Shown here one piece after another: positions 9,086 through 32,589 of a stretch of DNA of 41,234 bases. The notes under the pieces were generated by a model that saw nothing but the letters and a program-made list of their open reading frames with translations, did no database searches and was not told the origin of the DNA. The number at the start of each line of letters is the position of its first letter. The first letter of the stretch is position 1. The position numbers and the translations under genes are program-made. The stretch comes from a virus: the IMG/VR virus record IMGVR_UViG_3300007609_000042, positions 1 through 41,234 of that record, one strand, 5' to 3'.

Positions 9086-9852
9086 CTTCTTTCTATATCC
9101 TCTTCTACGCACTCGGAGCCCCATTGTATTTCTAAGATATGTGCTCTTTCGGTCCCTGGATTGCTGGCATGATGCCACACTTCTTTGCCTATTGTGTACG
9201 GAAAACTTTCTGGCTTGAGGTAAACTGATTCTGTTCTACGATCATATTCTGTTTCCATTTTAATCTCACCTTCGAGTATGATCCACTGCTCTGACCTTTT
9301 AAAGTGTTTTTGATCCGATAATGCTTTTCCTGGTTCTACTACTAATTCTTTAACTTTATAACCTTTTTCTGGCTTGTCGTCAAGCACTCGCCAATAACCC
9401 CAAGTTCGTTCAGTCTTCTGTGTTTTCCACTCATCTAAAATCCAACTGCTGGAATTAGCCTTGTGCTCTCCGCCAATTCCAAATTCAAAAGATAATCTTT
9501 CATTGTCGATGCTCATTTCAGGTATGTTGGCATCATTTCTGTCACCGCCATTGGCGAAAATAACAGTATCGTCTGGATAGTTAATGAGTGTATCTCTTAT
9601 GAAGTTTTTGCAACTCCCGTCTAAGTCGTAGTCATCTTCAAATGCAACTACTGCATCTACCATGCTTAATGCTCTTACTATTTCTGCTCGTTCTGATGAC
9701 GGCATGAACGGCCTACCTTTTTTACGAGTTAGCCATGCGTCGGAGTTAACACCTACTACGATTTTATCTCCTAATGCCTTTGCTTCTTTTATGTAATTTA
9801 TATGCCCTGAATGAATCGGGTCAAACCCGCCGCTTACTAATACAATTTTCAT
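9082..9852 (-). CDS. Cytidylyltransferase-like / cupin fusion protein
   Basis: A 256-aa two-domain protein. Residues 1 to about 130 form a nucleotidyltransferase of the HldE/RfaE C-domain and glycerol-3-phosphate cytidylyltransferase type: GGFDPIHSGH (8-17) supplies the HxGH motif, followed by GVNSDAWL and PFMPSSERAEIVRAL. Residues about 150 to the end match the cupin of type II phosphomannose isomerase/GDP-mannose pyrophosphorylase: WGYWRVL, GYKVKELVVEPGKALSDQKHFKRSEQ and the late LEIQWG...EEDI. One metal-ligand His of the usual HxH pair appears replaced (KHFKRSEQ). It is the first gene of the minus-strand glycan block. GATAAATA (9858-9865) lies 5 nt before its ATG and no Shine-Dalgarno is present. 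Confidence 0.88.
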   Translation of the reverse strand: MKIVLVSGGFDPIHSGHINYIKEAKALGDKIVVGVNSDAWLTRKKGRPFMPSSERAEIVRALSMVDAVVAFEDDYDLDGSCKNFIRDTLINYPDDTVIFANGGDRNDANIPEMSIDNERLSFEFGIGGEHKANSSSWILDEWKTQKTERTWGYWRVLDDKPEKGYKVKELVVEPGKALSDQKHFKRSEQWIILEGEIKMETEYDRRTESVYLKPESFPYTIGKEVWHHASNPGTERAHILEIQWGSECVEEDIERR

Positions 9853-9857
9853 GCAAA

Positions 9858-9865
9858 TATTTATC
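9858..9865 (-). promoter_or_regulatory. T4-type late promoter, leaderless spacing (for 9082-9852)
   Basis: GATAAATA followed by TTTGC and the ATG. The 5-nt spacer places the A of ATG at the +1 expected for a T4 late promoter. It is paired back-to-back with the plus-strand octamer at 9880-9887. Confidence 0.72.
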
Positions 9866-9879
9866 TGCTACTATTATTC

Positions 9880-9887
9880 GATAAATA
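9880..9887 (+). promoter_or_regulatory. T4-type late promoter, leaderless spacing (for 9893-10528)
   Basis: GATAAATA followed by TTATC and the ATG at 9893, again a 5-nt spacer. It forms a divergent pair with 9858-9865; only 14 nt separate the two octamers. Confidence 0.72.
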
Positions 9888-9892
9888 TTATC

Positions 9893-10528
9893 ATGAACAC
9901 ATGGCTTCAATCTTTTAATAAAAAATACAAAGAAAATCTTAATGTTAGAGCAAGCGGATCTAAAAGAGGATTAGCAGATGACACAATATATAATAGACAT
10001 GAAGGATTTTCTATTATATTCGATAAACTAATCCAAAAAAATCAATCTCACTACAACATTATAGAAACTGGGACTACTAGAAAACCCAACAACTGGAAGG
10101 ACGGCAACAGTGGATTTTTGTTTGTGGAATTTTGCAAAGAATTCGGCGGGTTTGTTAAATCAGTCGATATTGATAAAAATGCAGTACAAGAGTCTAATAA
10201 CTTTAACGATCCAGCTTATCATCTTGCAGAATGTATGGACAGCGTAAAATGGCTCGGTCAACAAGAAAACTTAAAAGATGTAGATCTTTTTTATCTAGAC
10301 AGCTATGATGTAAAATGGCAAAAGGATGAAAAAAGTGCAGAGCATCATTTAAAGGAATTTAAAGTTATTGAACCTTTTTTAGAAAATTGTATTGTTGCCA
10401 TTGACGATAACAGTAGACTGTTAGAATCAAATCACAGAACAGGCAAAGGCAGAATGATTGCAGAATATTTAGATTCTAAAAGCAAATCTCCTATCTACGA
10501 CGGATACCAAATTATTTATGAGTTCTGA
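9893..10528 (+). CDS. Class I methyltransferase-like protein
   Basis: A 211-aa Rossmann-like protein with features of SAM-dependent methyltransferases: a motif-I-like IIETGTTR, an acidic motif-II-like VKSVDID, and motif IV-like VDLFYLDSYD followed by IVAIDDN. The glycine-rich loop is less standard than in the other methyltransferases of this block, so the activity is uncertain. The start is placed at 9893 (MNTWLQSF) because the late promoter sits exactly 5 nt upstream; the longer frame from 9851 would run through the promoter. It overlaps the next gene by 11 nt and heads the plus-strand block to 13912. Confidence 0.7.
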   Translation: MNTWLQSFNKKYKENLNVRASGSKRGLADDTIYNRHEGFSIIFDKLIQKNQSHYNIIETGTTRKPNNWKDGNSGFLFVEFCKEFGGFVKSVDIDKNAVQESNNFNDPAYHLAECMDSVKWLGQQENLKDVDLFYLDSYDVKWQKDEKSAEHHLKEFKVIEPFLENCIVAIDDNSRLLESNHRTGKGRMIAEYLDSKSKSPIYDGYQIIYEF

Positions 10529-11806: not shown

Positions 11807-11849
11807 ATTATTACAATAGATTATGTTGTTGTACAAGTGAGGTATATAG

Positions 11850-13188: not shown

Positions 13189-13195
13189 CTGTTGT

Positions 13196-14327: not shown

Positions 14328-14545
14328 TATTCGTAGTCACTATACTCGTCGTCTTCTTCATCTAGAACATAGTTTACAGCTTCGTCTAAATGCGGATCGA
14401 TCCCTAAAAGTGCTTCGATTTCTGTATCCTTTACTCCGTGATCTACTAATACATTAACGAAGTCTGTTGCTAAGTTTTCTCTGGCTGTCATCTCAACATG
14501 TGCGAGTATTGATGTCCATAAATCGGCGATAATATCAGTTGTCAT
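14327..14545 (-). CDS. Small acidic protein between uvsX and uvsY
   Basis: A 72-aa protein, mostly helical, ending in an acidic tail (DEEDDEYSDYE). No domain recognised. Both ends overlap neighbours (ATGA with uvsX, TAATG with uvsY), which argues that it is a genuine, translationally coupled gene of the recombination operon. The acidic tail resembles those of ssDNA-protein partners and DNA mimics, but this is speculation. Confidence 0.75.
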   Translation of the reverse strand: MTTDIIADLWTSILAHVEMTARENLATDFVNVLVDHGVKDTEIEALLGIDPHLDEAVNYVLDEEDDEYSDYE

Positions 14546-15609
14546 TCTTGCTCCTCTACAATTTCTTCTTGCTGTTCTGGTACAACTTCTTCAGGTTTTC
14601 CATGTAGATGGTACTGATTCATAACCATGTCTAGCTTTTCGCCAGTCCATGCTTTTCTATATTCAAGATGTTCCGTACCATCCGGCTCGATGTATTTAAG
14701 TCGATTACCTTGTTGTGTAAGCAAACCGTGTTTTTCAAAAAGATCAACAAGTCCGCTATATGGATTCATGCCTGTTTCGTATGGGATCTTTACTTGTACA
14801 CCTTCAAACGGTTTTGCGTAACGAGTTTTCATTACTTTACAACCCGCACGAATACCGTTTACTGTTGTTGTTTTATTACCATCTTCATCTTCTTTCAGCT
14901 TTAACTTCTTCATTGCAACTACAATACTACTTGCATAGATAAAGCCTTGACCGCCTGAAATCTTATCATCTGGATCGAACATATCCTGCGATGCATATGT
15001 GTGATTGGTACATACCATGCCTACATTGTAGCTACCAAACATGTTTACACAGTTACGAACAAGTGCTGTGAGTGCTTTAGGCTTACGACCCATATCACCT
15101 TTTAAATCGCCTTTGCCAAACTGATCAACATCTGTCGGTGTTAATAACATACCCAGCGAGTCGACTACAAATAATACTTTAGGACGATCTTCTTCCGCCA
15201 TTGTGCGATATTCTTTCATGAACTCTGAAACAGTTTTAGCAACATCATCGATCATTGCCATATTAAGTTTAAGAAGTTTTTCTTCCGATGTATCAACATC
15301 AAGTGCATGTAACCATTTTTCGTCTAGTGCGTTTTCGGAATCAACTAAGACTACAAAAATGCCTTGATCTTGTGCATGTTTTACAATGTTGCCAGAACAA
15401 AAATAACTTTTACCTGCGCCAGATTCTCCTGCAAATACTGTTACCTTACCAAGCGGAACTCCTTTGTGAAAGTCTCCACTTATTAGATAATTAAGGGCAT
15501 AATTACCTGTGCTGACCCAATCTGTTGGATCATTAAAGCCTACACCGAGACCGTCGATACTCTTGGTTAGACTTTTTCTAAATTTTGTTAAATCGAATGC
15601 TTTTGACAT
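14542..15609 (-). CDS. uvsX: UvsX, RecA-like recombinase
   Basis: A 355-aa RecA/RAD51-family strand-exchange ATPase. Walker A is GESGAGKS (61-68), and Walker B lies in VLFVVDSLGML (145-155). The L1/L2 region and the switch-type TNHTY (201-205), followed by ISGGQGFIYASSIV, are as in T4-like UvsX. It repairs and recombines phage DNA with UvsY and gp32. The C-terminus is acidic. It has a good Shine-Dalgarno (AAGGAG) before the ATG. The 76-nt gap to gene 32 contains a large hairpin (15639-15677). Confidence 0.96.
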   Translation of the reverse strand: MSKAFDLTKFRKSLTKSIDGLGVGFNDPTDWVSTGNYALNYLISGDFHKGVPLGKVTVFAGESGAGKSYFCSGNIVKHAQDQGIFVVLVDSENALDEKWLHALDVDTSEEKLLKLNMAMIDDVAKTVSEFMKEYRTMAEEDRPKVLFVVDSLGMLLTPTDVDQFGKGDLKGDMGRKPKALTALVRNCVNMFGSYNVGMVCTNHTYASQDMFDPDDKISGGQGFIYASSIVVAMKKLKLKEDEDGNKTTTVNGIRAGCKVMKTRYAKPFEGVQVKIPYETGMNPYSGLVDLFEKHGLLTQQGNRLKYIEPDGTEHLEYRKAWTGEKLDMVMNQYHLHGKPEEVVPEQQEEIVEEQE

Positions 15610-15638
15610 ATTTACTCCTTAATCGAAAAGCAAGAGTA

Positions 15639-15685: not shown

Positions 15686-16696
15686 TTAATCAGACTTTTG
15701 ACGCGATCTAATCATCGCTAAGATATCTTCTGCCCTGGAATTATTACCTTCGTCCGCTTCAGATTTAGTTTCTGTAGCTGGAGCAGTTGTCGTCTCGGGC
15801 TTGGGATCTGGATCAAACGGAACGTCATCCTTTGTTTCTGGAATCGGTGTAGGTTTAGGAGCAAACGATGCTGTCTGGGTGTTCGGGTCACCTGTACGCT
15901 GTGACATACCCGCTGGACGGAAATATTGACTCCAACGTTCTGGATCATATGCTTCACCGTCAACCGATGCTTCGAACATCTCCATCATAACCTTTTGTTC
16001 TACTTCCGAGGGTCGCTTAGGAAGGAATTCAGAAAGATTAAACAATCCATGTGTGTCAACAGCCGCGGCTTCATCTTCACTTAAAGAGCGTTCACGACGA
16101 CTCCACGTTGATGTAGAGTAATCAGCATATCCGCCTTTTGACGTTTTCTTGATACGGAAATCAACACCACGCATATAGTCTGTTGGTAATTCTTCCAACT
16201 CTGGATCCATTAATGCACCTTTGATAATTTGAAAAATCTGAGGTCCGATAATAAACCGACGAACAGGATTTTCTGGAATTGTTTCTTCTCCAATTGGATC
16301 ATCTACAACAAACCCTTGGAAAATATAAGAACGTTTCTTCCAGTACTTACGACCCATGTCTTCTAAACTTGCGTCTTTAAACCACGTGCGTACTTCAGAA
16401 AGAATAGGACAGGTTTGTCCGTCGCCATACATTTCAACGCAAGGTATCTGAACCTGCACTGGGCGTGAATCTGTTTCTCCTACGATTCCGCTAAATGGCA
16501 ATTTAATCATTGCCCGTTCGACCCAGAAAAATGTATTATTCTGATCGCCGTCTGGCAAGAAACGAATTACTGCTTCTTTTCCTTCTTGCATGTTCCAGTG
16601 TGGATAAATTGCATTATCACCAGGGGTTGATGATTTATTGCCGCCGTTGTTTTGAGATTCCGCGAGCTTTGCACGGATTTCAGCTAATGATGCCAT
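15686..16696 (-). CDS. 32: gp32-like single-stranded DNA-binding protein
   Basis: A 336-aa ssDNA-binding protein of the T4 gp32 family, coating single strands in replication and recombination. It shows the N-terminal basic/cooperativity region (MASLAEIRAKLAES), the OB-fold core with HWNMQEGKEAVIRFLPDG (33-50), and an acidic C-terminal tail with DVPFDPDPKPE and the final RAEDILAMIRSRQKSD. In T4, zinc is held by His64, Cys77, Cys87 and Cys90. Here C86 and C96 keep the CX9C spacing, but the CxxC third Cys and the His are absent. A strong Shine-Dalgarno (AAGGAGG) precedes the ATG. Transcribed from the sigma70-type promoter at 16750-16778. Confidence 0.93.
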   Translation of the reverse strand: MASLAEIRAKLAESQNNGGNKSSTPGDNAIYPHWNMQEGKEAVIRFLPDGDQNNTFFWVERAMIKLPFSGIVGETDSRPVQVQIPCVEMYGDGQTCPILSEVRTWFKDASLEDMGRKYWKKRSYIFQGFVVDDPIGEETIPENPVRRFIIGPQIFQIIKGALMDPELEELPTDYMRGVDFRIKKTSKGGYADYSTSTWSRRERSLSEDEAAAVDTHGLFNLSEFLPKRPSEVEQKVMMEMFEASVDGEAYDPERWSQYFRPAGMSQRTGDPNTQTASFAPKPTPIPETKDDVPFDPDPKPETTTAPATETKSEADEGNNSRAEDILAMIRSRQKSD

Positions 16697-16737
16697 TATA
16701 TGCCTCCTTGTTATTGCCTTTAATGGTTATGCCTAAA

Positions 16738-16830: not shown

Positions 16831-19593
16831 TTACATGCCTGATAGTCGTCGTATTTTTGCTAACTCTTCTAATTCACTCACACCTAGTTTTTCTAATGCA
16901 TCATTTATAGAATCAAGATGCTGTTGCATCTGCATTTGTTCTGTATCTCTTAAAAAATCGGCTGTATTGTCAGCGACGGAACCAATACCACCCGGATTCT
17001 TTTTAAACCATGCTTCAGCTTCTGCCTTCATTTTAAGTAATTCTTCGCGACTCTTGCCGTCATACATACCTTCATCGACAGTATCAACGTCCTGTTGCGG
17101 AGCCATTCTTTCAATCATTTTTCCGGCGGCCTGTCCAGCGGTTTCACCGAACTTTTTCTCTACACTCTGCATTACTGCGGTAGGTCCTTTAGGGAATGTG
17201 CCTTGATCTTTATCGTAAAAGCTCATTATGTAATCAGCAACTTCACTAAGTTCTTGCTTGCTCATTGCCTTACGCATACCTTTCTTAGCAAGATGTTTTG
17301 CTACATTTTTCTTTTTGATTTTATTTCCAAACTCGTCAGTATCAGTTGTCTTTTCATCAGGCTCAAATGGTGGTTCGTCATTGGAATTTTTTTCTAACAT
17401 GATGTCTTCTTCTAACATACTAGATAGTTTTTCTTCATTTCCAGCATCATCAAACAACCAGCCTAGTATTTTGCTTCCGCCCCACAGAGCCGCAATTACA
17501 AGTCCTACAGGTATTGCATACTGTTTTGCAACTTCTGCGATTTGTCTAATTATGTCCATATCGGCGATTGCTTCTACACCCTGTCCAAGCGTATCTACAA
17601 TTTTGTCAAAATATTCTTCGGCTGTATCGAAAATACCCGATCCGTAGTCTGCAACTTGATCAGCGGCTTTTTCTACACTCTTGCCAATTTCATTTGCACC
17701 GATTGCAATCCCAGTTCCTACAGCGGCAGGTCCTGCTATTTTACTTCCAATGCCGCCTGGACCTCGCATAACATCTTTGGCAGCCGCGGCGCCTGCGCCC
17801 ATTGGAGTCTGTGGCGTTTTTCCACCTGTACCGCCTGCGGCTGTTGCAGGTCCTCTGTCTCCTGCATTTGGTTTTGCTGTAGCGCCAGTAGACTTAGGAT
17901 CTTTATATCTGATTTCAATATCAGCTTTAGGTGGCTTGTCTCTCATTGAGAGACGAGCCTCAGGTGGCTTGTCTGTCTTAGCTTGTTTCGCTATATCATC
18001 AATAGATTTTCCTGTGCCTGCTTTAGATAGTTTATCAGCGGCTTTTTTACTATCTTGTGGAATTTTTGCCTTTTTACCTAACTGTGCAATTTGCTGTAAA
18101 CCTTTAGAAGCCGCACCGCCTCTAATTAAGTTTGCTAAAGGCCCAAGCACTGCACGACCGACGCCTAGCAATGCCGGAATGAATTCGTTTAGCTGTTCGG
18201 CTGATTCATCTACCATATCGCCAAAATCTAAATCATTTAATACTTCAGGAGCATTATCTTCTAACCATTTCTTAACTAAAGGACGAACACACTGGTCTGG
18301 ATCTTCTTCAGCAACTTGCTTAATTTCAGAGTACAATCCTGAATCTTCGATGATATCTTCCAATGCGCTAATAGCATTCATACCATCGTTTCCTGCAGGA
18401 AAATGCTCTTTAACAAGCTTCTGCAATGAGTCAATAGCATGATCTCTTATTTCAGGATCATCAGATGTGACGTTTGTAGCCTCTTCAATTTTTGATATCC
18501 AATTTTCTAAATCTTCTAGATGATTAACTTCTTTTTTATAATTGTCTTCACTGCGCTCTTCTACTTGAACAAAACTGACTACGTCATCATAGCCTAATTC
18601 ATTTTCTTTCATAAATTTGTATAGGATAGGAAACACTGATTTAATTTCTTCGTTAAAGTTTCTAATGGTGAATTTTTCGACTAAATCTTGTTCTACATCT
18701 TCAGGAAGATCGATTGCCTCTTCAGCTTCAAAATTGTTTACAAAATTTTCATAATACGATTGCTTAGACAGTTTCTTGACAGTGCCTTTGAGAGATTCTA
18801 ATTCATTTTTTGTTTTTTCAATCAAGTTAGATGTTTCTTCGCTGATCAAATTATTACGATTGATATAGTTTGTAAAGTTTTTTAAATGAGAAATTTTTTC
18901 GCTCATTGAAACGATACCTTCGCCGATTTGATCATACGGCAGTCCGCCGTTTGCTACATGACGTTGCATAGCTCTCGCACCTGCTAGATGAACATACGGA
19001 TATTTAAATCTTTCACCTTTTGAATTTTCTATAAACATAGAAGAAATATTTCTAGTTCTTGCCGCAGGATCTATATCGTTTAACGTTTTTTTATGTTTGA
19101 TAATTAATTTTGTATCTTGTAAATCCTGGTAGCTGGTCTTGCTTGTACCATACATATGGCTTTCGTTCATCATTATATCCTCAACAAATTTGTCGTTATT
19201 TGTTTTATCAAAGTATCTTTCGTTATTGGATAAAAATGCATAATCTCTTGTATGCAAAATATCCTTGCTAATATCTCGTGTATCGAAACTCATTAATCGT
19301 TTCTTGGAAAACAGCCTTAATTCTTTTAAAAAACTATACCATTTTTGTTTTTCACCGTCAGCCATATCTTCTGTTATATTTGTACTGAAATAAACTTTTA
19401 ATGAATTGTTTTCATTAATGCTTATCGTAACATGTCCGATTGATCTGTCATTATCGGTATATTCAAAATCAAAAAATCTAGCATCTTCAGGTGTTATAGT
19501 AACTTCGCCGTCTTGAGTACCAAGCTTTAGTCCTTCGAATCTGCTTCTAATTTTGTAAAATAAATCTGTTGCTATGCCGTTTAGTGAATCCAT
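16831..19593 (-). CDS. Large virion-type protein downstream of terminase
   Basis: A 920-aa protein with start at 19593 (MDSLNGIATDLFYKIRS), where a late promoter lies 5 nt upstream; a TTG 15 nt earlier would lie inside the promoter. The N-terminal region (EKQKWYSFLKELRLFSKKRLMSFDTRDISK) resembles large structural proteins of marine T4-like phages. The middle is acidic and helical. A Gly/Ala/Pro-rich low-complexity stretch follows at about 560-670, then two hydrophobic segments, one near IAGPAAVGTGIAIGANEI and a clear 22-residue one, AIPVGLVIAALWG through LGWLF. The C-terminal part is helical. The likely role is a virion or ejected protein. It could instead be a core or scaffold protein. Confidence 0.78.
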   Translation of the reverse strand: MDSLNGIATDLFYKIRSRFEGLKLGTQDGEVTITPEDARFFDFEYTDNDRSIGHVTISINENNSLKVYFSTNITEDMADGEKQKWYSFLKELRLFSKKRLMSFDTRDISKDILHTRDYAFLSNNERYFDKTNNDKFVEDIMMNESHMYGTSKTSYQDLQDTKLIIKHKKTLNDIDPAARTRNISSMFIENSKGERFKYPYVHLAGARAMQRHVANGGLPYDQIGEGIVSMSEKISHLKNFTNYINRNNLISEETSNLIEKTKNELESLKGTVKKLSKQSYYENFVNNFEAEEAIDLPEDVEQDLVEKFTIRNFNEEIKSVFPILYKFMKENELGYDDVVSFVQVEERSEDNYKKEVNHLEDLENWISKIEEATNVTSDDPEIRDHAIDSLQKLVKEHFPAGNDGMNAISALEDIIEDSGLYSEIKQVAEEDPDQCVRPLVKKWLEDNAPEVLNDLDFGDMVDESAEQLNEFIPALLGVGRAVLGPLANLIRGGAASKGLQQIAQLGKKAKIPQDSKKAADKLSKAGTGKSIDDIAKQAKTDKPPEARLSMRDKPPKADIEIRYKDPKSTGATAKPNAGDRGPATAAGGTGGKTPQTPMGAGAAAAKDVMRGPGGIGSKIAGPAAVGTGIAIGANEIGKSVEKAADQVADYGSGIFDTAEEYFDKIVDTLGQGVEAIADMDIIRQIAEVAKQYAIPVGLVIAALWGGSKILGWLFDDAGNEEKLSSMLEEDIMLEKNSNDEPPFEPDEKTTDTDEFGNKIKKKNVAKHLAKKGMRKAMSKQELSEVADYIMSFYDKDQGTFPKGPTAVMQSVEKKFGETAGQAAGKMIERMAPQQDVDTVDEGMYDGKSREELLKMKAEAEAWFKKNPGGIGSVADNTADFLRDTEQMQMQQHLDSINDALEKLGVSELEELAKIRRLSGM

Positions 19594-19598
19594 AACAA

Positions 19599-19606
19599 TA
19601 TTTATC
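19599..19606 (-). promoter_or_regulatory. T4-type late promoter, leaderless spacing (for 16831-19593)
   Basis: GATAAATA followed by TTGTT and ATG. The TGA stop of terL (19605-19607) overlaps the first two bases of the octamer. 5-nt spacer; no Shine-Dalgarno. Confidence 0.75.
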
Positions 19607-21191
19607 AAAAACCAGTACTAACGAATATAGGCAATGGTGCAGACTCTTCTGTAATTTGTTCTGTCATCTTTTCGTAAATTTTAGGATCCCAGTCAGCCAA
19701 TACCGAAGCCATACGAACACACAATAGTGTGGCACTTACTAAATCATCGTGTTCTCCGCTTTTTGCTCCAAATCCTACACCGTTAGCAATATAGGTCTTT
19801 AATTCTGTTATTAACGGCTTGGAATAAATTTTCATTTTATTTGTTTCTATGAGATTTTTAAATTTAGAACAGGCTGTAATTTTATTTTTATGAGTTGTGT
19901 TAAATCCCTTACGGAACCTACGTACATGTCCTTTTCTTATAGGCTCGCTCAAGAACAATCCAGGAAAATTATCTTCGCCGATATCATTAATAACAATAAG
20001 TGCGGCTTCTCCTAGAGTGTTGTTTTCTACAGAATAATAAATTTGTGGTTCACCGCCTTTTGATTTCGCAGTATCTTGTATGTATTTCAAAATATCTCTA
20101 AGAATCTTCACCTGCTGTTGTACCGGAGTTGTATTGTGTCGCCATTCAGCTACCTGATCCATTGAAGGCATTTCAAAAACTTGAATTGCGCCATAATCGC
20201 CTCCGGTTCCTAAACTAGGATCTAGCGCAACTAGATATGTAGCTTTCGGGTTTATATCTTTATACCAACGAGTTTGTCCCATGGTAAGCATAGGATCTTT
20301 GCCTTCTAATTCAACAAGTTTTACACTGTTGATCAGTGTTTCGTCAAAAATCAAGAATTCACAATCGAACTCTCGACGAAATCTTTCTTCACCGATTTTT
20401 GCCTTTTCTTCTGCGGCCCAATCATCATCTCTATCGGGATGTTCGGTCCATGGTGCAAAAAACGGATAAAATCCATTTAAGCCAACTTCTCGGTCATTGC
20501 CGTGCGCATCAAACTTTTTCTGAGCCTCTGTCCAAATCATCGCAAATTGATCTTCATCTGAGTTTGGTGTTGAAGTTACAATACACTTACCGCCCGTTGA
20601 CAGTGTAGGTGAAAGTGCTGTCCAGAACTCTTTGGCTTTTTCGGGAGGTTGTACAAACGCAAACTCGTCGCAGTAAATTAATGACAATGACTTACCACGT
20701 CCTGTGTTTTCTGTTGTGGTGGTTGCTTGTACACGACTACCATTATCAAATTCAACAGTATTTCTGTTATATGTATAAATTCCTGCACGAACAAAATCAG
20801 GCAATTGCTCATAACCGTATCTGAAACGATTCATAATATCTTGAGCACCTACATATTTGTGTGCGGCAATTAGAATTTGTGATTCGGGAACAAACATTGC
20901 ATACCATAACAAATATCCTGCGGCACAGGTCGTCTTTCCCATCTGTCTAGGGAGCATAGCAACAGTATATCTGTAATCGTTGTAAGAGGCAATAAGATCT
21001 TTTTGAAATCCGTATGGTTCAAAAGGAATAGAACCTTTAGTAGGATGTTGAATTTTTAGAAAGTTTTGCATAAAATACAAAGGACCACCTTTTAAGTCCA
21101 TGCACTTTTCTAAATGCTCAATTTCTGTTTCAGTGTAACGCTGTTTTGCATGCGCTTTTTTAACAAGAACGCCGTCTAATGATTTGCTCAT
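19605..21191 (-). CDS. terL: Terminase large subunit (gp17)
   Basis: The 528-aa motor that packages DNA into the prohead. The ATPase has a Walker A of the terminase type, PRQMGKTT (81-88), Walker B LIYCDE (171-176) and coupling motif STPN (207-210). The RNase-H-like nuclease domain shows VALDPSLGTGGDYGAI with D324, YYSVENNTLG with E389, and GEHDDLVSA with D482/D483. The FQK segment at 62-64 is the adenine-binding region. T4 gp17 is 610 aa, so this is a compact version. It has its own late promoter (21197-21204) immediately after a terminator. Confidence 0.97.
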   Translation of the reverse strand: MSKSLDGVLVKKAHAKQRYTETEIEHLEKCMDLKGGPLYFMQNFLKIQHPTKGSIPFEPYGFQKDLIASYNDYRYTVAMLPRQMGKTTCAAGYLLWYAMFVPESQILIAAHKYVGAQDIMNRFRYGYEQLPDFVRAGIYTYNRNTVEFDNGSRVQATTTTENTGRGKSLSLIYCDEFAFVQPPEKAKEFWTALSPTLSTGGKCIVTSTPNSDEDQFAMIWTEAQKKFDAHGNDREVGLNGFYPFFAPWTEHPDRDDDWAAEEKAKIGEERFRREFDCEFLIFDETLINSVKLVELEGKDPMLTMGQTRWYKDINPKATYLVALDPSLGTGGDYGAIQVFEMPSMDQVAEWRHNTTPVQQQVKILRDILKYIQDTAKSKGGEPQIYYSVENNTLGEAALIVINDIGEDNFPGLFLSEPIRKGHVRRFRKGFNTTHKNKITACSKFKNLIETNKMKIYSKPLITELKTYIANGVGFGAKSGEHDDLVSATLLCVRMASVLADWDPKIYEKMTEQITEESAPLPIFVSTGF

Positions 21192-21196
21192 AGCTT

Positions 21197-21204
21197 TATT
21201 TAAC
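21197..21204 (-). promoter_or_regulatory. T4-type late promoter, leaderless spacing (for terL)
   Basis: GTTAAATA followed by AAGCT and ATG. It directly follows the T-tract of the terminator at 21205-21231; 5-nt spacer. Confidence 0.72.
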
Positions 21205-21231
21205 CAAAAAAATAGGGCCGTTCGACCCTAT
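21205..21231 (-). terminator. Rho-independent terminator before terL
   Basis: On the minus strand, AATAGGG/CCCTATT (7 bp) around 8 nt, followed by seven T. It ends the transcript of the three small genes upstream. Confidence 0.88.
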
Positions 21232-21249
21232 TGATTTTGTTATTCTATT

Positions 21250-22152: not shown

Positions 22153-22695
22153 TTATTTCTCCTCGGTTCCTGCAGATAATGCATGACCAAAATCTTTATT
22201 TTTTTCTTCTTTTTGTGTTTCTTTTCGTTGATTCTCTAAATCTTTCAAAAAGTTTGTATTGTATTCGTCACCGAAATATTCCTTCGATTCGGCATTTGTA
22301 AGTTCTTCATAGTTTGTGTTAGTTAAAAGCGTTTCGTCAGTAAGCAGTTCGCCTTTTGTAGCTTGATCAACTTCTGAAGGATCCATACTGTTTCTAACTA
22401 TAATTTTTTCTTCGCTAATATCAAATTCTTTTATAATGCTGGCGATTTCAGGCGGTGTAATTGGATATTGTGTTTGTACAGAAAAGATGCTTACTTCTTG
22501 ATTTCTTAAATCTGGAAAATCTAAAGGTACTCGCTGTATAGGAGTTTCCGACTCCTTTTTAATTTCGAGGGGTTCGTATGATGTCAACGCTTCTTTCAAT
22601 TTACCTTCAAAATCGTCCACAATCTTACCCGCAACTTTTACTTTGTGCGTGTAGATTTTTTGACTTTCAGTTAAATATTCTTTAAAACTTTTCAT
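22153..22695 (-). CDS. Unknown protein with MKSFKEYLTE start, 180 aa
   Basis: Not assigned. The opening MKSFKEYLTES is a recurrent N-terminus in virion-associated proteins of marine T4-like phages. The remainder is hydrophilic with short strands (EVSIFSVQTQYPITPPEIASI) and an acidic/basic helical C-terminus (FLKDLENQRKETQKEEKNKDF). It has its own late promoter 5 nt before the ATG, so it begins a late transcript that includes the next two genes. Confidence 0.72.
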   Translation of the reverse strand: MKSFKEYLTESQKIYTHKVKVAGKIVDDFEGKLKEALTSYEPLEIKKESETPIQRVPLDFPDLRNQEVSIFSVQTQYPITPPEIASIIKEFDISEEKIIVRNSMDPSEVDQATKGELLTDETLLTNTNYEELTNAESKEYFGDEYNTNFLKDLENQRKETQKEEKNKDFGHALSAGTEEK

Positions 22696-22700
22696 AATAG

Positions 22701-22708
22701 TATTTATT
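22701..22708 (-). promoter_or_regulatory. T4-type late promoter, leaderless spacing (for 22153-22695)
   Basis: AATAAATA followed by CTATT and ATG. The TAA stop of the terS gene (22704-22706) lies inside the octamer. 5-nt spacer; no Shine-Dalgarno. Confidence 0.7.
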
Positions 22709-23180
22709 CTTCTTTCCTTAATTTTTTCAATAGCTCGTTTCTATCTGAAATTATATAACCTTCACCGGATAAAGTATCTTCTTCCGGTTTGCTATCTTTG
22801 TCTATTTTCATTTTTTTAAGTTGAAGGTCGATTGCTTTTAATTTCCTATCAATCTTTGCTGATTTGGCGTCTATAGCATTTTTTAACATGCCGCTTGCAA
22901 CTTCGAAAATTCTTCCACTATATCGAACTTCGACATTCATTCCGAGATCCATTAAATCGTCATATGCTTGTTCTGCCTTTTCGGATAATGAATCTAAATC
23001 ACCTTCTTCAAGAGATTCTAGCTCTTGTATTGCAGGTAAATCGCCAGTAATTTGAGTTACCGCTTGATAACTGTCTTCGATACTGGATACTTCTTGGTGT
23101 CCCGCAATTTTTTCTTCGTGGGCTTCATTAAGTTTCTTTTTATCTTCCAAGTTAAAAATTTCTTCTAATTTTTTAGTCAT
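22704..23180 (-). CDS. terS: Small terminase subunit (gp16-like)
   Basis: A 158-aa, largely helical protein that resembles T4 gp16. It has a disordered acidic N-terminal part, a central pair of long helices (LSEKAEQAYDDLMDLGMN; YSGRIFEVASGMLKNAIDAKSA) in the position of the gp16 coiled-coil oligomerisation core, and a basic segment (KIDRKLKAIDLQLKKMKIDK). It would regulate the large subunit and help initiate packaging. Assignment rests on fold-type pattern and position between the gp4-like gene and terL, not on a catalytic motif. Confidence 0.72.
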   Translation of the reverse strand: MTKKLEEIFNLEDKKKLNEAHEEKIAGHQEVSSIEDSYQAVTQITGDLPAIQELESLEEGDLDSLSEKAEQAYDDLMDLGMNVEVRYSGRIFEVASGMLKNAIDAKSAKIDRKLKAIDLQLKKMKIDKDSKPEEDTLSGEGYIISDRNELLKKLRKEE

Positions 23181-23185
23181 AATTT

Positions 23186-23193
23186 TACTTATC
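23186..23193 (-). promoter_or_regulatory. T4-type late promoter variant, leaderless spacing (for terS)
   Basis: GATAAGTA followed by AAATT and ATG, one mismatch from NNTAAATA. The TAA stop of the gp4-like gene (23189-23191) lies inside it, with the same geometry as at 22701-22708. Confidence 0.55.
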
Positions 23194-23997: not shown

Positions 23998-25098
23998 TTA
24001 AGAAGATCCTTGCGTGTCTGTAAGATTTTTTTGAGAAGCTGTAGTTGTTGTAGTTGTTCCTTGGTTCTTTGGAAATATTGCGCCTGCAACACCGCTAACG
24101 GTATTTACGATACCATTAATTGATTCGGGACTTCTAATAAGATTTATAGCTTCTGCTTTGAGAGAATCCTTATCTAAATTTTTAAAATTTTTATAAGTGT
24201 TAATAGCGCCGATTGCTGTGCCTAAAAAGTTTTGTGGACTCGAAAATGCTGTTCCGTCAGCTACTGATCCAAAAATACTTTCTAAGCCGTCCAAGACGCC
24301 GCCTTCGCTGGTGAGAGTTGAGAGACCTCCGCCTGCAAGTGTCAAAGGAGATGGTGAATTATCATAGTATAATGTCGCGAATCCTTTTGGATTATCTCGT
24401 TTTACAATTCCTCCACTATAGTATACTGATTCGTATTCGACAGACATTTTGTTTTCCATCGGCATTGAATCTTCTGCATAGTCTGGAGTTCCGTGTTGCC
24501 AGGTTTTAATTTTTGGATTTACCAAAGTGTAACCTAACCAACGTTGTCTAGCCATAGTATAAATTGAAATATTCTTAAAAAACGGTACTGATCGGCCGTT
24601 ATCTAAACCAAACCTATAGTTATCAAGGGCTGGGATTTTCTCGTTTCTATAGTGTGTTGCACCAAATGCAGGTTCTGGATTGTTTCTATCTTTAATATAG
24701 TATCCGTAATATAATGCCCACATTGCATTTATAACGCCGCCGTTATCGTCATGGAAAGTAAAGTCGACAGGATCATAACTGAAATCTTTATACAATACTT
24801 TTTTTCTATTGTATTGATTTTTTGTTTCAGTTGTAAACGTATAATTCGGAAGCGAGCAATTTTTTACAAGATAACCCACTTCTTCTGAATGTTTAGCTTC
24901 AAACCCTTTAGATGCTTGTTTCAGTGCAGTTCTGTCAAATTCAAATCTTACATAGTAGTTAAATTTCGTTCTTGGGGCAAGCCTATAACTATTATCTAGA
25001 AATAGTCTAGTTGCATGTTGAAAATTTCCTACTAACCCTTTTGGATTAGTTAATCCATTTCCAAAACCTGTTAGAAATCTTGTAAACTTGTTTGCCAT
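23998..25098 (-). CDS. Tail-tube-like / tube-initiator-type structural protein
   Basis: A 366-aa virion protein. The central region, NYYVRFEFDR, then EEVGYLVKNCSLPNYTF, NQYNRKKVLYKDFSYDPVDFTFHDDNGG and MWALYYGYYIKD, is the conserved signature of a tube-like protein family of marine T4-like phages. It resembles the barrel domain of gp19 and of the tube initiators gp54 and gp48. The C-terminal part is Gly/Ser/Thr-rich (TTTTTTASQKN). It lies downstream of gp19 but with its own terminator-promoter junction. Which T4 counterpart (gp48 or gp54) it replaces is not decided by the sequence. Confidence 0.68.
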   Translation of the reverse strand: MANKFTRFLTGFGNGLTNPKGLVGNFQHATRLFLDNSYRLAPRTKFNYYVRFEFDRTALKQASKGFEAKHSEEVGYLVKNCSLPNYTFTTETKNQYNRKKVLYKDFSYDPVDFTFHDDNGGVINAMWALYYGYYIKDRNNPEPAFGATHYRNEKIPALDNYRFGLDNGRSVPFFKNISIYTMARQRWLGYTLVNPKIKTWQHGTPDYAEDSMPMENKMSVEYESVYYSGGIVKRDNPKGFATLYYDNSPSPLTLAGGGLSTLTSEGGVLDGLESIFGSVADGTAFSSPQNFLGTAIGAINTYKNFKNLDKDSLKAEAINLIRSPESINGIVNTVSGVAGAIFPKNQGTTTTTTASQKNLTDTQGSS

Positions 25099-25103
25099 AC
25101 TAT

Positions 25104-25111
25104 TATTTAGC
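25104..25111 (-). promoter_or_regulatory. T4-type late promoter, leaderless spacing (for 23998-25098)
   Basis: GCTAAATA followed by ATAGT and ATG. It directly follows the terminator after gene 19; 5-nt spacer. Confidence 0.72.
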
Positions 25112-25113
25112 CA

Positions 25114-25148
25114 TAAAAAAAGCCCAGTTTATATACTGGGCTTTTTAT
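25114..25148 (-). terminator. Rho-independent terminator after gene 19
   Basis: On the minus strand, AAAAAGCCCAGT paired with ACTGGGCTTTTT around a short AT loop, with a T-run. It closes the sheath-tube transcript. Confidence 0.93.
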
Positions 25149-28800: not shown

Positions 28801-29180
28801 CCAGGTTCAGTTGTTGATGCTTCTAATTGATCTAAATCTACGTCTGCTCTTGCTACAAATACTGAATTTGTAACACCTAATAGGCTGTATGCCGCTAATA
28901 GTCCGTATTCGTTTCTTTCTGATCCGTGTACTGGCGTTCCTGAAACAGTTTTTTCAAAGAAAGGAACACCAAATGTATCTAATAATTCTCTTTGACTTGT
29001 GATTCTAAAAACGCTTCCCGCATTTGCTTGAGTTGTTCCTGCCGCAGTGCCCGTGCCTGCCGCATTGGATTTGTTCTGTCCCGTTGCTACTATAATAGCC
29101 GCTGTAGTTCCTGGCTCAGCTGGCGTATAAAAGCTTTCGTCAATTACAGTAACTTCAACTCCCGGTGATGATAAAGCCAT
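25815..29180 (-). CDS. 18: Tail sheath protein gp18 (enlarged)
   Basis: An 1121-aa contractile sheath subunit; T4 gp18 is 659 aa. The N-terminus MALSSPGVEVTVIDESFYTPAEPGTT and the C-terminal module (VVSALKSAVDVNEQLRD, SHMMLRTMTLSDQVSFPWFAPAG, RLVAYLRSQLDKLAKPYIFEPND, VDIAIEPVKSIEFIYIPLRVQNTGEI) are canonical. The long central region holds several inserted domains with a recurring Trp-rich motif at residues near 132, 360, 603 and 658, for example DLWISTADLENFPTMYRYD. These inserts should form the outer surface of the sheath. It has a classic late promoter with leader and Shine-Dalgarno AGGAGAA, unlike the leaderless genes. Confidence 0.97.
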   Translation of the reverse strand: MALSSPGVEVTVIDESFYTPAEPGTTAAIIVATGQNKSNAAGTGTAAGTTQANAGSVFRITSQRELLDTFGVPFFEKTVSGTPVHGSERNEYGLLAAYSLLGVTNSVFVARADVDLDQLEASTTEPGAEPDDGAWWVNTATTTFGIQEWNGAAATTTGGQRFSYKQPIVLTDDDSSRITSNAPKGSVGAIGDYAVVFETGTTIKENAKLYYKSAGSGLGAGVDAGSWVLVGSADWIASHPAVQGDVLTETLSSGENFKINGTTITVPGTETLDGLVSTIGTTIPGIYAKNVSGALYLYSDGTAITEDSSSGGVIQIEEGDNPGVLDDLGISTGTYYPPALQQTPHTRVPTWKATGNTPRPTGSIWVKTTEPNQGARWRVSQWNSAIQSWVPFNAPLYDSTHSSLYYLDRSGGGANLTVDSLFVQTNANVPQGEDVAGTVKGTAQFKLWRRASVGETAITGTAVTADTFTAGTYTFTVKESLRGELSLSSATTVSFDAIGNANDADTMAEAVNAAGLVNVNARVTDDNQVELYHSLGGDIRISDGDGTPIADIFTPYNVVTNVGTSNFYSLPATSDDDYLATNWKPLITEGFSAVSSQPLNEPSDGQLWYNPNFGEVDIMVHNGNTWVGYLNEYPLTDPAGPIVSASEPDEQSDGTALVANDLWISTADLENFPTMYRYDANNAEWVQLDTADQTTEDGVLFADARYGDSGATGDTAANIVTLLTSNYLDTDAPDPDLYPTGMLLYNTRRSGGNVKRYANNYINLGEDNARFDAVNSPNGDGYSSGQSQSGYATDRWVTASANNEDGSGAFGRNAQRKVVVSALKSAVDVNEQLRDTERRNFNLISCPGYTELLSNLINLNIDRGLTAFVVGDTPFRIQSDATTLTSWGSNENLAFDNGDEGLVSFDEYAAVFYPSGFTTDLGGTNAVIPPSHMMLRTMTLSDQVSFPWFAPAGTRRGGITNATSVGYIDGLTGEFQTVALNEGQRDTLYDLKINPITFFTGVGLVNFGQKTRASNASALDRINVSRLVAYLRSQLDKLAKPYIFEPNDKLTRDEIKGAVESLLLELVGLRAIFDFAVVCDESNNTPSRIDRNELYVDIAIEPVKSIEFIYIPLRVQNTGEI

Positions 29181-29208
29181 ATTGTTCTCCTAATATTGAA
29201 CTGTGTAG

Positions 29209-29216
29209 TATTTAGT
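29209..29216 (-). promoter_or_regulatory. T4-type late promoter for genes 18-19 (with leader)
   Basis: ACTAAATA. The predicted start leaves about 23 nt of leader that includes the ribosome-binding site AGGAGAA (29185-29191). Confidence 0.7.
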
Positions 29217-29240: not shown

Positions 29241-29248
29241 TATAAATA
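29241..29248 (+). promoter_or_regulatory. Consensus T4 late promoter for the HNH-like gene
   Basis: TATAAATA, an exact T4 late consensus, 27 nt before the ATG at 29276, with an AAAAAGG ribosome-binding site between. Divergent from the gene 18 promoter. Confidence 0.75.
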
Positions 29249-29275
29249 GAAAAAAGGGGTAAAAAAGGTTCAATT

Positions 29276-29611
29276 ATGCGTCCAATGTGCAAATGTGGTG
29301 AAAGACCCAGGGCAATTAACTATAAAAAAAATGATAAAACGTATTATCGAAGTCTATGCGAAGTCTGTTTATCTAACGGCTTGTATCACAGAGTTCCTAG
29401 ATGGAAACGTGCAGGTTACAAAATTAAAGACAAATGCGAACGCTGTGGATTTACATCAGCTGTAGCTAAAGTTTTTAAGGTTTTTCATGTCGATGGAGAT
29501 CTAAACAACTGTAGGTACAGAAATCTAAAGACTGTTTGTAGTAATTGTTCTATCATAATTCAACAAAGCGAAACACGATGGAAGATAGGAGATCTAGAAG
29601 CAGATTTTTAG
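29276..29611 (+). CDS. HNH-like zinc-binding protein
   Basis: A 111-aa protein with two presumed zinc sites: C5xC7 with C28xxC31, and C54xxC57 with C88xxC91. Between the halves of the second site lies FHVDGDLNNCRYRNL (70-84), an HNH-type beta-beta-alpha core with H71, N78 and N83. Compared with the usual HH..G...NN...NL..LC..CH pattern, the first His is Phe and the final His is Ser, so cleavage activity is uncertain. It could be a homing-like endonuclease or a DNA-binding zinc protein. It is alone on the plus strand between gene 18 and dNMP kinase, as expected for a mobile or independent unit. Confidence 0.72.
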   Translation: MRPMCKCGERPRAINYKKNDKTYYRSLCEVCLSNGLYHRVPRWKRAGYKIKDKCERCGFTSAVAKVFKVFHVDGDLNNCRYRNLKTVCSNCSIIIQQSETRWKIGDLEADF

Positions 29612-30218: not shown

Positions 30219-30237
30219 TTTATACTCCTATCTATAT

Positions 30238-30266
30238 ATTATAGTAGAAAAAGTATTACAAGTCAA
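30238..30266 (-). promoter_or_regulatory. sigma70-type early promoter for dNMP kinase
   Basis: TTGACT (30261-30266), 17-nt spacer, TATAAT (30238-30243) on the minus strand. The -35 overlaps the stop of the 90-aa gene upstream. The best host-like promoter in the window. Confidence 0.88.
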
Positions 30267-30535
30267 CGTTTTTTGTTTAATCTACGGATTAACTTAGAAA
30301 CAGGATTAGTTCTTTTTGTGAATTTAGCTCTACGTGCTTGACGAACTCCGGTAGTAGCTCTGGTTTTTTTCATTCGCTGTGCTTTAGCAACATCAGGATG
30401 AGCAAAACAATCCGATGGCTTCGGAACTGTTCTGCCTTTTCTCGGTCCAAACATGCATCTATATTTTAGCTTAGGGCCGCTTTTGCTTTTTGACCATACT
30501 GCTTGTACTTCGTTTATAAATTCATCTGCTTTCAT
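30263..30535 (-). CDS. Small basic protein downstream of gp13
   Basis: A 90-aa, strongly basic protein (MKADEFINEVQAVWSKSKSG..., with YRCMFGPRKGRTVPKPSDC and a C-terminal run of RxRR, KR and KK clusters). The start at 30535 overlaps the stop of gene 13 as TAATG; an upstream start would add five residues within gene 13. I recognise the CxxGPRKGR...C pattern from uncharacterised proteins of marine T4-like phages but know no function. The composition fits a nucleic-acid-binding or packaged basic protein. Confidence 0.75.
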   Translation of the reverse strand: MKADEFINEVQAVWSKSKSGPKLKYRCMFGPRKGRTVPKPSDCFAHPDVAKAQRMKKTRATTGVRQARRAKFTKRTNPVSKLIRRLNKKR

Positions 30536-31293
30536 TAACCAATTACCCAACCGTAGCCATGTCCGCCCGACACTAAATTAGTTAGCTCTAAAGTTAATCT
30601 ATCAAGATCGGCCTGGCCTTCGGCTTTCATGCTCGATCCGTTTAGAGCAGTTCCCCCTTGTGGGCCTGCAATACTGGCAAACTTTTCTCTTGCTTGTCCT
30701 AACATGATTTTGCAGTTTGCTAACGAATAATCTTTAATCCATTGTCCTGCATAGGTGTCTTCGATAATTGCAAAATCAGGCCTTACATTATAAGCCCAAA
30801 GCAAAACCTGTTCGTCTGCTCTCGGACGTTGCATTATTGTGAGTTTATGAGCCTGAGAATTCCAATTAAAGTTAATAAAACTGCCAAACATTTTTCCAAC
30901 AAGTTCTTGATAACCTGCAAATAATTCATACGTTGCAAGCCCGCCCATATTGGTTGAACTAAGCAAATATGTGTTTGTATAAGCAAGATTAAACGGTTCG
31001 AATACAGTGCCGCCTTGGCCGCCGCCGGTTCTTGAACCAATACTTCTACGATAAACTTGTCTTACTTGTTGTACTTCTTGTGGAAGAATATAATCATTCT
31101 GATCTTCATTCAATGTCAAGAACAAATAACTTTCCTCAACACTGTTATCAGAACGTTGTCTGAACACCGCTAAAGATCGGTCTAACGCAGTTTTATAATG
31201 TTCAGGATCTAATTCTACATCAATCATGCCGTCGCCCAACATGGTCCTGCAATAATCATAAACTTCCTGTCTGTGTTGATCTATTTGACTCAT
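30535..31293 (-). CDS. 13: Neck protein gp13 (head completion)
   Basis: A 252-aa protein resembling T4 gp13, which with gp14 forms the neck between head and tail. Matches include VYDYCRTMLGDGMIDVELDPEHYKTALDRSLAVFRQRSD (the T4 equivalent reads '[21 protein letters not shown]..AL'), LTIMQRPRADEQVLLWAYN, WIKDYSLANCKIMLGQAREKFA and the Gly-rich C-terminus. T4 gp13 is 309 aa. It is on the opposite strand from gp14 and gp15. GATAAATA lies 5 nt before its ATG. Confidence 0.86.
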   Translation of the reverse strand: MSQIDQHRQEVYDYCRTMLGDGMIDVELDPEHYKTALDRSLAVFRQRSDNSVEESYLFLTLNEDQNDYILPQEVQQVRQVYRRSIGSRTGGGQGGTVFEPFNLAYTNTYLLSSTNMGGLATYELFAGYQELVGKMFGSFINFNWNSQAHKLTIMQRPRADEQVLLWAYNVRPDFAIIEDTYAGQWIKDYSLANCKIMLGQAREKFASIAGPQGGTALNGSSMKAEGQADLDRLTLELTNLVSGGHGYGWVIG

Positions 31294-31298
31294 ATGTA

Positions 31299-31306
31299 TA
31301 TTTATC
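31299..31306 (-). promoter_or_regulatory. T4-type late promoter, leaderless spacing (for gene 13)
   Basis: GATAAATA followed by TACAT and ATG. Only one nucleotide separates it from the plus-strand octamer for gene 14. Confidence 0.75.
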
Positions 31307-31307
31307 C

Positions 31308-31315
31308 GGTAAATA
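31308..31315 (+). promoter_or_regulatory. T4-type late promoter, leaderless spacing (for gene 14)
   Basis: GGTAAATA followed by TAGTT and the ATG at 31321. 5-nt spacer. Confidence 0.68.
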
Positions 31316-31320
31316 TAGTT

Positions 31321-32589
31321 ATGCCAAGATTAAGTTTATATCGTCCGGAGAAAGGTAAAGATTATAAATTCATAGATAGAACTGTTTATGAAATGTTTCA
31401 AGTTGGTGGTACCGATGTGTACCTACATAAGTATCTAGGACCTAACACAGAAAATTCAGAAAATACACCGAGTCAGCCTCAGTATGACGGTGCGCTTGAA
31501 TCTCAAATTCAAGATTTATTATTTTTAGAAAACAGGGATCGAAAATATGATCCTGACATCTATATGTTGCGAGGCGTGTATAACGTATCTAATACCGATT
31601 TTAATTTAAGTCAATTTGGATTATTTTTACAAAACGATACACTTTTTATTGTTTTTCACATAAACGATTCTGTGGAAAAAATTGGCAGAAAAATCATAGC
31701 GGGCGATGTGCTAGAATTACCTCATCTCGATGACGAACACGCATTAAACGATCTTCAGTTTGCACTAAGAAGATTTTATGTTATTGAAGAAGTTAATCGT
31801 GCCGCAGAAGGATTCAGTGTTACTTGGTATCCTCATTTGTACAGAGCAAAATGTACACCGCTTGTAGATAGTCAAGAGTACAAGGATATTCTCGACGGGA
31901 TTGCCGATCGAACAGGCGAAGATACCGAAACGTCTCTTAGAGATATTATGAGCACATACGAACGAGAAATGCAAATCACACAGGCAGTTCTCGATCAAGC
32001 GGAAGAAGATGCTCCTAAGTCAGGATATGACACTTCTAAATACTATCACTTACAAACAGACGATCAAGGCAATGCAGAATTAGTCACAGTAGATACCAGT
32101 AATATCGACGCATCCGAACAGACACAGGCAACAGATGTAGACGGAAACCTATTATTTGATACATCCGGCGATCCAGTTTATATTAATCCTACAGCATCTG
32201 CACTGTTAGAAACAGCAGACGAAAAGAAATATAATGGTTATATTTTATCTGACGGATTACCCACAAATGGTGCTCCGTTTACCGCAGGATTGGCATTTCC
32301 ATCGTCCGCTGTTCAAGGGCAATTTTGTTTAAGGAAAGATTATCATCCTAATCGATTGTTCAGATACAACGGAACACGTTGGATTAAAGTAGAGGATTCA
32401 GTAAGAATGACTATGAGTAATTTAGGACCTAGTGATGTTCAAGAAGGAGGAGTGTTCGAAGGAAAAGATGCACGTGAAACTCTTAAAACTTCTTTTATTA
32501 ACAATACTAATACAGATACAATTAATGGCAAAGAGATTACAGAAAAACAAAGTTTATCTAAAGCACTTAGACCAGAGGCCGACGAATAA
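31321..32589 (+). CDS. 14: Neck protein gp14
   Basis: A 422-aa protein with the gp14 neck pattern. It opens MPRLSLYRPEKGKDYKFIDRTVYEMFQVGGTDVYLHKYLGP, and LFLENRDRKYDPDIYMLRGVYN, FNLSQFGLFLQNDTLFIVFHIN, KIIAGDVLELPHLDDEH and FYVIEEVNRAAEGFSVTWYPHLYR correspond to T4 gp14's 'YYVPRE....FSNFGMQVQDEVTLSI....GDLIYFP....FEINWVEP'. T4 gp14 is 256 aa; this one has a C-terminal extension with a Trp-motif at about 334-359 (PNRLFRYNGTRWIKVED). The start at 31321 is set by the promoter and family N-terminus. It overlaps gene 15 by 1 nt (TAATG). Confidence 0.88.
   Translation: MPRLSLYRPEKGKDYKFIDRTVYEMFQVGGTDVYLHKYLGPNTENSENTPSQPQYDGALESQIQDLLFLENRDRKYDPDIYMLRGVYNVSNTDFNLSQFGLFLQNDTLFIVFHINDSVEKIGRKIIAGDVLELPHLDDEHALNDLQFALRRFYVIEEVNRAAEGFSVTWYPHLYRAKCTPLVDSQEYKDILDGIADRTGEDTETSLRDIMSTYEREMQITQAVLDQAEEDAPKSGYDTSKYYHLQTDDQGNAELVTVDTSNIDASEQTQATDVDGNLLFDTSGDPVYINPTASALLETADEKKYNGYILSDGLPTNGAPFTAGLAFPSSAVQGQFCLRKDYHPNRLFRYNGTRWIKVEDSVRMTMSNLGPSDVQEGGVFEGKDARETLKTSFINNTNTDTINGKEITEKQSLSKALRPEADE

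Follow-up and report, generated by a model that had tools for sequence, protein, structure and literature searches.

Late promoters of phage T4 consist of an octamer near TATAAATA and need no −35 element (PMC2988020, in the part of this review that was available). The octamers mostly lie 12 to 29 nucleotides (nt) before the ATG, and the genes carry leaders with a Shine-Dalgarno (SD) sequence. The stretch of viral DNA analyzed here, called the window, comprises 41,234 nt (IMG/VR record IMGVR_UViG_3300007609_000042) and corresponds to bases 6579 to 47812 of the T4-like IMG/VR contig IMGVR_UViG_3300026097_000009 (G001; 154,861 bases). It resembles T4 in carrying octamers that match TATAAATA with small deviations only, with no −35 element needed, at late virion and assembly genes on both strands, and in belonging to a genome that encodes a gp55 homologue. 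It differs from T4, which has no excess of this spacing, in that the box stands exactly 5 nt before the ATG with no leader, and in that the first two letters of the octamer are variable, often G and A in this clade, unlike the TA of T4. This arrangement—a TAAATA or TAAGTA box (TAARTA), a spacer of exactly 5 nt, and then ATG—is referred to as N5. The octamers are very likely gp55-type late promoters producing leaderless late mRNAs. The leaderless reading, proposed in an earlier note on this DNA, is supported here, as a prediction, by the excess of N5 sites, the pyrimidine preceding the ATG, upstream terminators, divergent gene pairs, the gp55 homologue, and orthologues in phage PA5oct.

The leaderless phage mRNAs of lambda cI and P2 gene V begin at their AUG. 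These are single regulatory or isolated genes, whereas here a set of late genes shares one promoter design. Phage transcripts have been described as "often leaderless" (PMC5312081, available part), and the existence of leaderless mRNAs in phages is thus already established. Leaderless genes of bacteria and archaea have the promoter −10 element at the start codon, and in Sulfolobus the first gene of a transcript is leaderless and the distal genes are SD-led, as in the window (both from the accessible portion of PMC3160421); in contrast, the promoter here is of a phage late type, and the genes encode phage virion and assembly proteins. The jumbo phages CBB and GAP32 share an ATAAATA late motif, a gp55-like sigma factor, and undetected gp33 and gp45, but a fixed distance from box to ATG is not mentioned in the accessible text of PMC5259590; in their relative 121Q, the boxes lie mostly 25 to 47 nt upstream and none at 5. 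For pelagimyophages, an unsuccessful prediction of late promoters is reported in the portion of PMC7029224 at hand, which does not mention the N5 arrangement; the word "leaderless" is absent from the text of that paper. The same N5 peak is present in Pelagibacter phage HTVC008M and its relatives. The literature searched, which was in part accessible and had subscription journals and preprints outside it, yielded no account of T4-like phages with leaderless late mRNAs, and the novelty of the design is not certain.

The nine N5 gene starts claimed for the window are all present, on both strands (Table 1). The box is TAAATA at eight of these and TAAGTA at one, and the octamers of 31293 and 31321 are a single base apart. 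A spacing scan with NNTAARTA, counting ATGs that open at least 70 codons, gives nine sites at a spacing of 5, and the other 60 spacings have a mean of 0.18 and a maximum of 2 (Poisson P 5.5e-13). TAARTA-N5-ATG occurs 10 times against 1.87 expected from 100 dinucleotide shuffles (maximum 6); the tenth match, at 18993–19006 (−) within the gene 16831–19593, looks like chance. A 4-letter SD match at −20 to −4 is present at 0 of the nine starts, which bears out the claimed lack of SD sequences, and the genes downstream are, as also claimed, SD-led (21688, GAGGAGAAATAAATG; 25162, GGGAGAAATATAATG; 23629, AAGGATCTTCTTAAATG) or abut the preceding gene. The open reading frame (ORF) of 19593 has an alternative opening at TTG 19608. 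Over codons 2 to 10 downstream of the N5 ATG, the third codon position is on average the most variable in six gene families, which supports this ATG as the real start.

Table 1. Late boxes, terminators, and contrasting gene starts of the window
Feature	Coordinates	Strand	Spacer	Gene and remarks	Detection
Late box GATAAATA	9850..9865	−	TTTGC	ATG of gene 9082–9852 (cytidylyltransferase-like and mannose-6-phosphate isomerase C-terminal domains)	
Late box GATAAATA	9880..9895	+	TTATC	ATG of gene 9893–10528 (unknown function); head-to-head with 9852, 40 bp ATG to ATG	
Late box GATAAATA	19591..19606	−	TTGTT	ATG of gene 16831–19593 (virion structural protein); box overlaps terminase stop codon	
Late box GTTAAATA	21189..21204	−	AAGCT	ATG of large terminase gene 19605–21191	
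Late box AATAAATA	22693..22708	−	CTATT	ATG of gene 22153–22695 (virion structural protein); TAA of box is stop of upstream gene	
Late box GATAAGTA	23178..23193	−	AAATT	ATG of gene 22704–23180 (weak small-terminase-subunit match); TAA of box is stop of upstream gene	
Late box GCTAAATA	25096..25111	−	ATAGT	ATG of gene 23998–25098 (tail-tube-like)	
Late box GATAAATA	31291..31306	−	TACAT	ATG of gene 30535–31293 (head-tail adaptor)	
Late box GGTAAATA	31308..31323	+	TAGTT	ATG of gene 31321–32589 (virion structural protein); its ATG 27 bp from that of 31293, head-to-head	
Intrinsic terminator hairpin	21211..21232	−		T-tract ends 14 nt before terminase ATG	pattern scan and folding
Intrinsic terminator hairpin	25117..25146	−		T-tract ends 16 nt before ATG 25098	folding and own scan; missed by simple pattern scan
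Contrast: leadered TAAATA	29178..29214	−		28 nt before sheath ATG 29180; leader with AGGAG	
Contrast: TATAAATA with 27-nt leader	29241..29278	+		ATG 29276	
Contrast: UvsX-like recombinase gene	14542..15631	−		SD AAGGAG; without N5 box	
Contrast: single-strand DNA binding protein gene	15686..16718	−		SD AAGGAGG	

A genome scan for an excess of the 5-nt spacing had been named beforehand as the test that could refute the proposal; it was run and gave a very strong enrichment in relatives. The relatives were the best 80 of 377 confirmed from a terminase search and the best 80 each of 599 and of 110 confirmed from other searches. In the 80 terminase-related loci, 326 of 940 TAAATA stand exactly 5 nt before an ATG that opens a reading frame of 80 codons or longer; a spacing of 4 has 21, 6 has 0, 7 has 18, and 31 nt has a lesser peak of 56. 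Among 15 arrangements of the letters AAAATT, TAAATA has by far the largest peak at a single spacing, and the runners-up, ATAAAT at 6 (182) and AAATAT at 4 (128), are shifted images of the same site. The six whole contigs of the window's clade (G001–G006) each have 10 to 13 sites at a spacing of 5, compared with means of 0.65 to 1.00 at other spacings. With these contigs standing in for loci L001, L002, L005, L031, L059, and L073, the set comprises 394 N5 sites in 36 protein families. Most of its genes encode virion or assembly proteins, terminase and adaptor among them, and a small number are nonvirion genes such as the 9852/9893 pair. The letters of the spacer vary at constant length, with up to 19 distinct 5-mers per family (68 terminase sites). 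The codon at this position, given 90 open codons, is ATG in 53 cases, TTG in 2, and GTG in 0 in the six contigs, a near-exclusive ATG that fits the AUG requirement of leaderless mRNA.

The base preceding the ATG is a near-invariant pyrimidine, and spacer positions 1 to 4 are variable, also in counts with repeated flanks removed. It is T or C at 391 of the 394 sites (251 of 254 distinct sequences), with no exception in 33 of the 36 families. In G001–G006, 59 of 60 N5 genes have T or C at this position compared with approximately 44% of 687 other genes, a comparison limited to ORFs of 90 codons or more, in which SD sequences guided the choice of start for non-N5 genes. Bacterial RNA polymerase favors starts at a purine (+1) that follows a pyrimidine (−1). 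With this preference and a T4 octamer that starts at −13, the A of the ATG is the expected +1. The position of −13 for the first base of the T4 octamer is given in the available part of PMC2988020 and agrees with the arithmetic of the earlier note. At leadered ATAAATA boxes, the pyrimidine–purine step peaks 5/6 nt past the box in T4 (0.44 of 32 sites), and its frequency at 5/6 is 0.49 of 39 in PA5oct and 0.58 of 12 in HTVC008M; in 121Q it is spread, with 0.42 at 4/5 and 0.45 at 7/8.

The surroundings of many N5 starts limit the space upstream. Both terminator hairpins of the window fold well (z −3.8), and the one at 25117..25146 reaches −17.6 kcal/mol with its flanks, with 0 of 200 shuffles as good. 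A simple pattern scan of the window gave 13 terminator-like sites against 8.1 expected and listed, of the two hairpins, only that of the terminase. At 117 of the 394 sites, in five families, the box directly follows a terminator-like hairpin that has a T-run, compared with 0.8 for shuffled flanks; among these are 64 of the 68 terminase sites and 48 of the 51 sites of tube-like genes. The T-tract ends 14 nt before the ATG in 56 of the 57 terminase sites having a run of five T, and 16 to 17 nt before it in 51 of 51 sites of the second conserved gene. Head-to-head N5 pairs, listed only with T or C preceding the ATG, occupy eight rows, two of which are one contig (L005 and G003); besides the two pairs of the window, HTVC008M (L298) has a distance of 26 base pairs (bp) between ATGs and L353 one of 12 bp, the range being 12 to 40 bp. 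There is no room for a long leader at these sites because the terminators end 14 to 17 nt upstream or the divergent ATGs are so close. To carry an ordinary leader, a transcript of these genes made from the nearby DNA would have to begin within the opposite gene or arise by terminator read-through. At L353 4175–4188, the 12 bp between the divergent genes are filled by two overlapping N5 late boxes.

Leadered and SD-led genes are found in the same genomes. In addition to the contrasting starts of Table 1, the major capsid gene has a strong SD sequence in six of the six clade contigs and no box in the 60 nt upstream. The UvsY-like gene 13872–14327 abuts the preceding gene and has no clear SD sequence. 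Across G001–G006, a 4-letter SD match at −20 to −4 is found in 0 to 50% of the N5 sets, lying in or upstream of the box, and in 61 to 66% of other genes. A small gene family of approximately 111 amino acids (family 4) has N5 in 41 of 44 homologues examined, and its window member, 29276–29611 (+), has TATAAATA and a 27-nt leader—a leadered/leaderless switch within one family.

The window box is assigned as a putative gp55-type late promoter by its resemblance and its company. The gp55 homologue lies outside the window at G001 91415–92359 (−) and matches phrog_12791, "sigma factor for late transcription" (E 1.7e-84), and phrog_234 (E 1.2e-22); it is also present in G002, G003, and G005. Iterated hidden Markov models found gp33 and gp45 together only in T4, Syn9, P-SSM2, and HTVC008M among 12 genomes. 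In a PF02916 search of 10 records, T4 was the only one with a gp45 match, and the gp45 of HTVC008M was missed, hence this search is insensitive.

The N5 peak is not shared by all T4-like phages compared. N5 counts and means of other spacings are 2 and 1.60 in T4, 0 and 0.93 in Syn9, 3 and 2.08 in P-SSM2, 0 and 3.25 in 121Q, and 4 and 2.55 in PA5oct, none of which has a peak. TAAATA-N5-ATG is found 0 times in the Sinorhizobium T4-like phages phiM12 and phiM9 and four times in P-SSM4, compared with six control matches. HTVC008M has 12 N5 sites against a mean of 1.22 at other spacings; Mosig (6 against 1.17; P 0.0013) and Melnitz (3 against 1.27; P 0.14) show a weak, partial signal. In the GenBank annotation of HTVC008M, eight N5 sites within a 27-kb stretch are annotated gene starts, including those of head closure, tube cap, baseplate wedge, tape measure, and DNA end protector. 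The peak recurs in relatives of HTVC008M, counted with repeated flanks removed: a structural gene search divided into three identity bands has N5 at 34 of 153, 30 of 200, and 22 of 339 TAAATA, and the surroundings of gp55 have it at 51 of 1121. The window encodes the large terminase, tail sheath, tail tube, head closure, UvsX, UvsY, and single-strand DNA binding protein; its large terminase has 54.6% identity to that of Pseudomonas phage PA5oct, the closest cultured phage among the matches listed. The PA5oct orthologues of two N5 families (2 and 7) keep the box, followed by a longer leader with an AAGG or GAGG SD sequence. The terminase of PA5oct (NC_071039) has no TAAATA box, yet the ATG of the annotated terminase region comes only a few bases after a terminator-like hairpin and its T-run; it may be near-leaderless too.

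Two factors were considered and dropped. A bS21 homologue is encoded by HTVC008M, Mosig, Melnitz, and PA5oct (4 of 19 records) and was not found in G001–G009, which leaves no simple link to a phage-encoded ribosomal protein. Cleavage of SD-containing mRNAs by RegB as a reason for leaderless late mRNAs was rejected, since RegB was found only in T4 among 12 records.

Several observations weigh against leaderless late mRNAs made from gp55-type promoters. The leadered ATAAATA set of G001–G006 (76 sites) lacks a clear peak of the pyrimidine–purine step at 5/6 (0.33, with 0.41 at 4/5 and 0.43 at 1/2); many of these sites are perhaps not promoters. The pelagimyophage sets with the shorter TAAATA box have A or G before the ATG in 5 of 34 and 7 of 30 cases. 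The spacer is 4 nt in 9 of 80 terminase orthologues and 7 nt in 10 of 78 members of the next family, most non-N5 members of family 5 have TAAGTA-N4, and 2 of the 80 terminase orthologues (L007 and L023) have no box. The capsid and sheath genes, major late genes, are not leaderless, and coupling could help at the three window sites where the box overlaps the upstream stop. In addition, gp55 was not found in G004 and G006, and gp33 and gp45 were not found in G001–G006, for which reason the full T4 late system is not claimed for this clade. In L007 and L023, terminator and box are both lost, and an AT-rich AAATAA/AAGTAA stretch lies directly before the terminase ATG.

The arrangement could alternatively be an AU-rich ribosome-binding element within ordinary leadered mRNAs. 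The position of the box suits a ribosome-binding site and the genes lack SD sequences, but to our knowledge the TAAATA box has no obvious complementarity to the 3′ end of 16S rRNA, and terminators and divergent pairs leave little space for such leaders. Within these genomes, replication genes and a good many late genes have SD leaders, an identical box stands 27 to 28 nt upstream at two other window genes, the box precedes an SD-containing leader in the PA5oct orthologues, and a pyrimidine preceding the ATG is a constraint of the promoter type, all of which makes a translation signal improbable. About as unlikely are late promoters that give very short leaders by starting 1 to 5 nt before the ATG: RNA polymerase has some freedom in choosing its start, and the spacers of 4 and 7 nt in relatives indicate that the position is not absolutely fixed, but the pyrimidine is almost invariant next to variable spacer positions, and a leader of 1 to 3 nt would in practice still amount to none.

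Reinitiation across a short gap, with the TAA of the box serving as the upstream stop, matches the geometry at 19593, 22695, and 23180; the starts at 9852, 9893, 21191, 25098, 31293, and 31321 follow terminators or are divergent, which leaves stop–start coupling highly improbable as the explanation. The earlier note had held that AT-richness hardly explains the spacing. The window has a G+C content of 37.7%, but 0 of 100 shuffles reach the observed count of 10, the Poisson probability is minute, the spacing is kept in orthologues, and other AT-rich T4-like phages (T4, P-SSM2, 121Q, and PA5oct) have no peak, so that chance has a negligible probability.

For leaderless late transcription, a gp55-family sigma factor would read the octamers, transcription would start at the A of the ATG or no more than one or two bases away from it, and recognition of the 5′-terminal AUG would initiate translation without an SD sequence. 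Downstream genes on the same transcripts, as well as major capsid and sheath, would keep SD leaders or coupling. The late mRNAs of N5 genes are very probably leaderless, as the placement of the promoter puts the start at or near the ATG. The copy numbers of virion products, low or high, are known from T4. Capsid and sheath are SD-led and the N5 set comprises terminase, adaptor, and assembly proteins, which suggests two-tier late translation. Tentatively, and with the balance leaning somewhat against it, two distant lineages, the window's clade and the pelagimyophages, may have separately made part of the late regulon leaderless: high-output capsid and sheath would use strong SD sequences, and low-copy assembly genes would run from promoter to AUG, packed behind terminators or head-to-head in as little as 12 to 27 bp and used via the 70S leaderless pathway late in infection. 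Extreme compaction is a suggested benefit of leaderless AUGs.

In uncultured T4-like phages and in a cultured SAR11 phage, the late promoter of the textbook T4 system appears to have been joined directly to the start codon of many late genes. If true, this would explain the unsuccessful standard searches for late promoters in pelagimyophages (PMC7029224, available part), correct the annotation of gene starts and operons, and provide naturally occurring systems whose essential genes for virion assembly are expressed by leaderless translation. The cultured pair of HTVC008M and Pelagibacter HTCC1062 makes the prediction directly testable.

Far-T4 phages (PMC4360716) would be recognized by a phoH gene next to the structural genes and by relationship in gp23, gp20, and gp17 trees; PhoH (PF02562), sought as a sign of such membership, was not found in G001–G006. 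The one hint at the host of the window's phage, a single genome-contig relative of 7.6 kb that sits in a Betaproteobacteria metagenome bin and has 65% identity in the terminase, was set aside as too weak. The start of contig L057 exactly at the terminase ATG was considered as an RNA-derived end and dropped as a single case. No tRNA genes were found in the eight tiles of G001 searched. The window further carries at 34616–40756 (−) the gene of a 2046-residue virion structural protein, which has an SD-like GGAG but lacks an N5 box. A sugar-nucleotide gene block at 1–13900, with a GDP-mannose dehydratase and a nucleotidyltransferase fused to a mannose-6-phosphate isomerase domain, adjoins the late genes.

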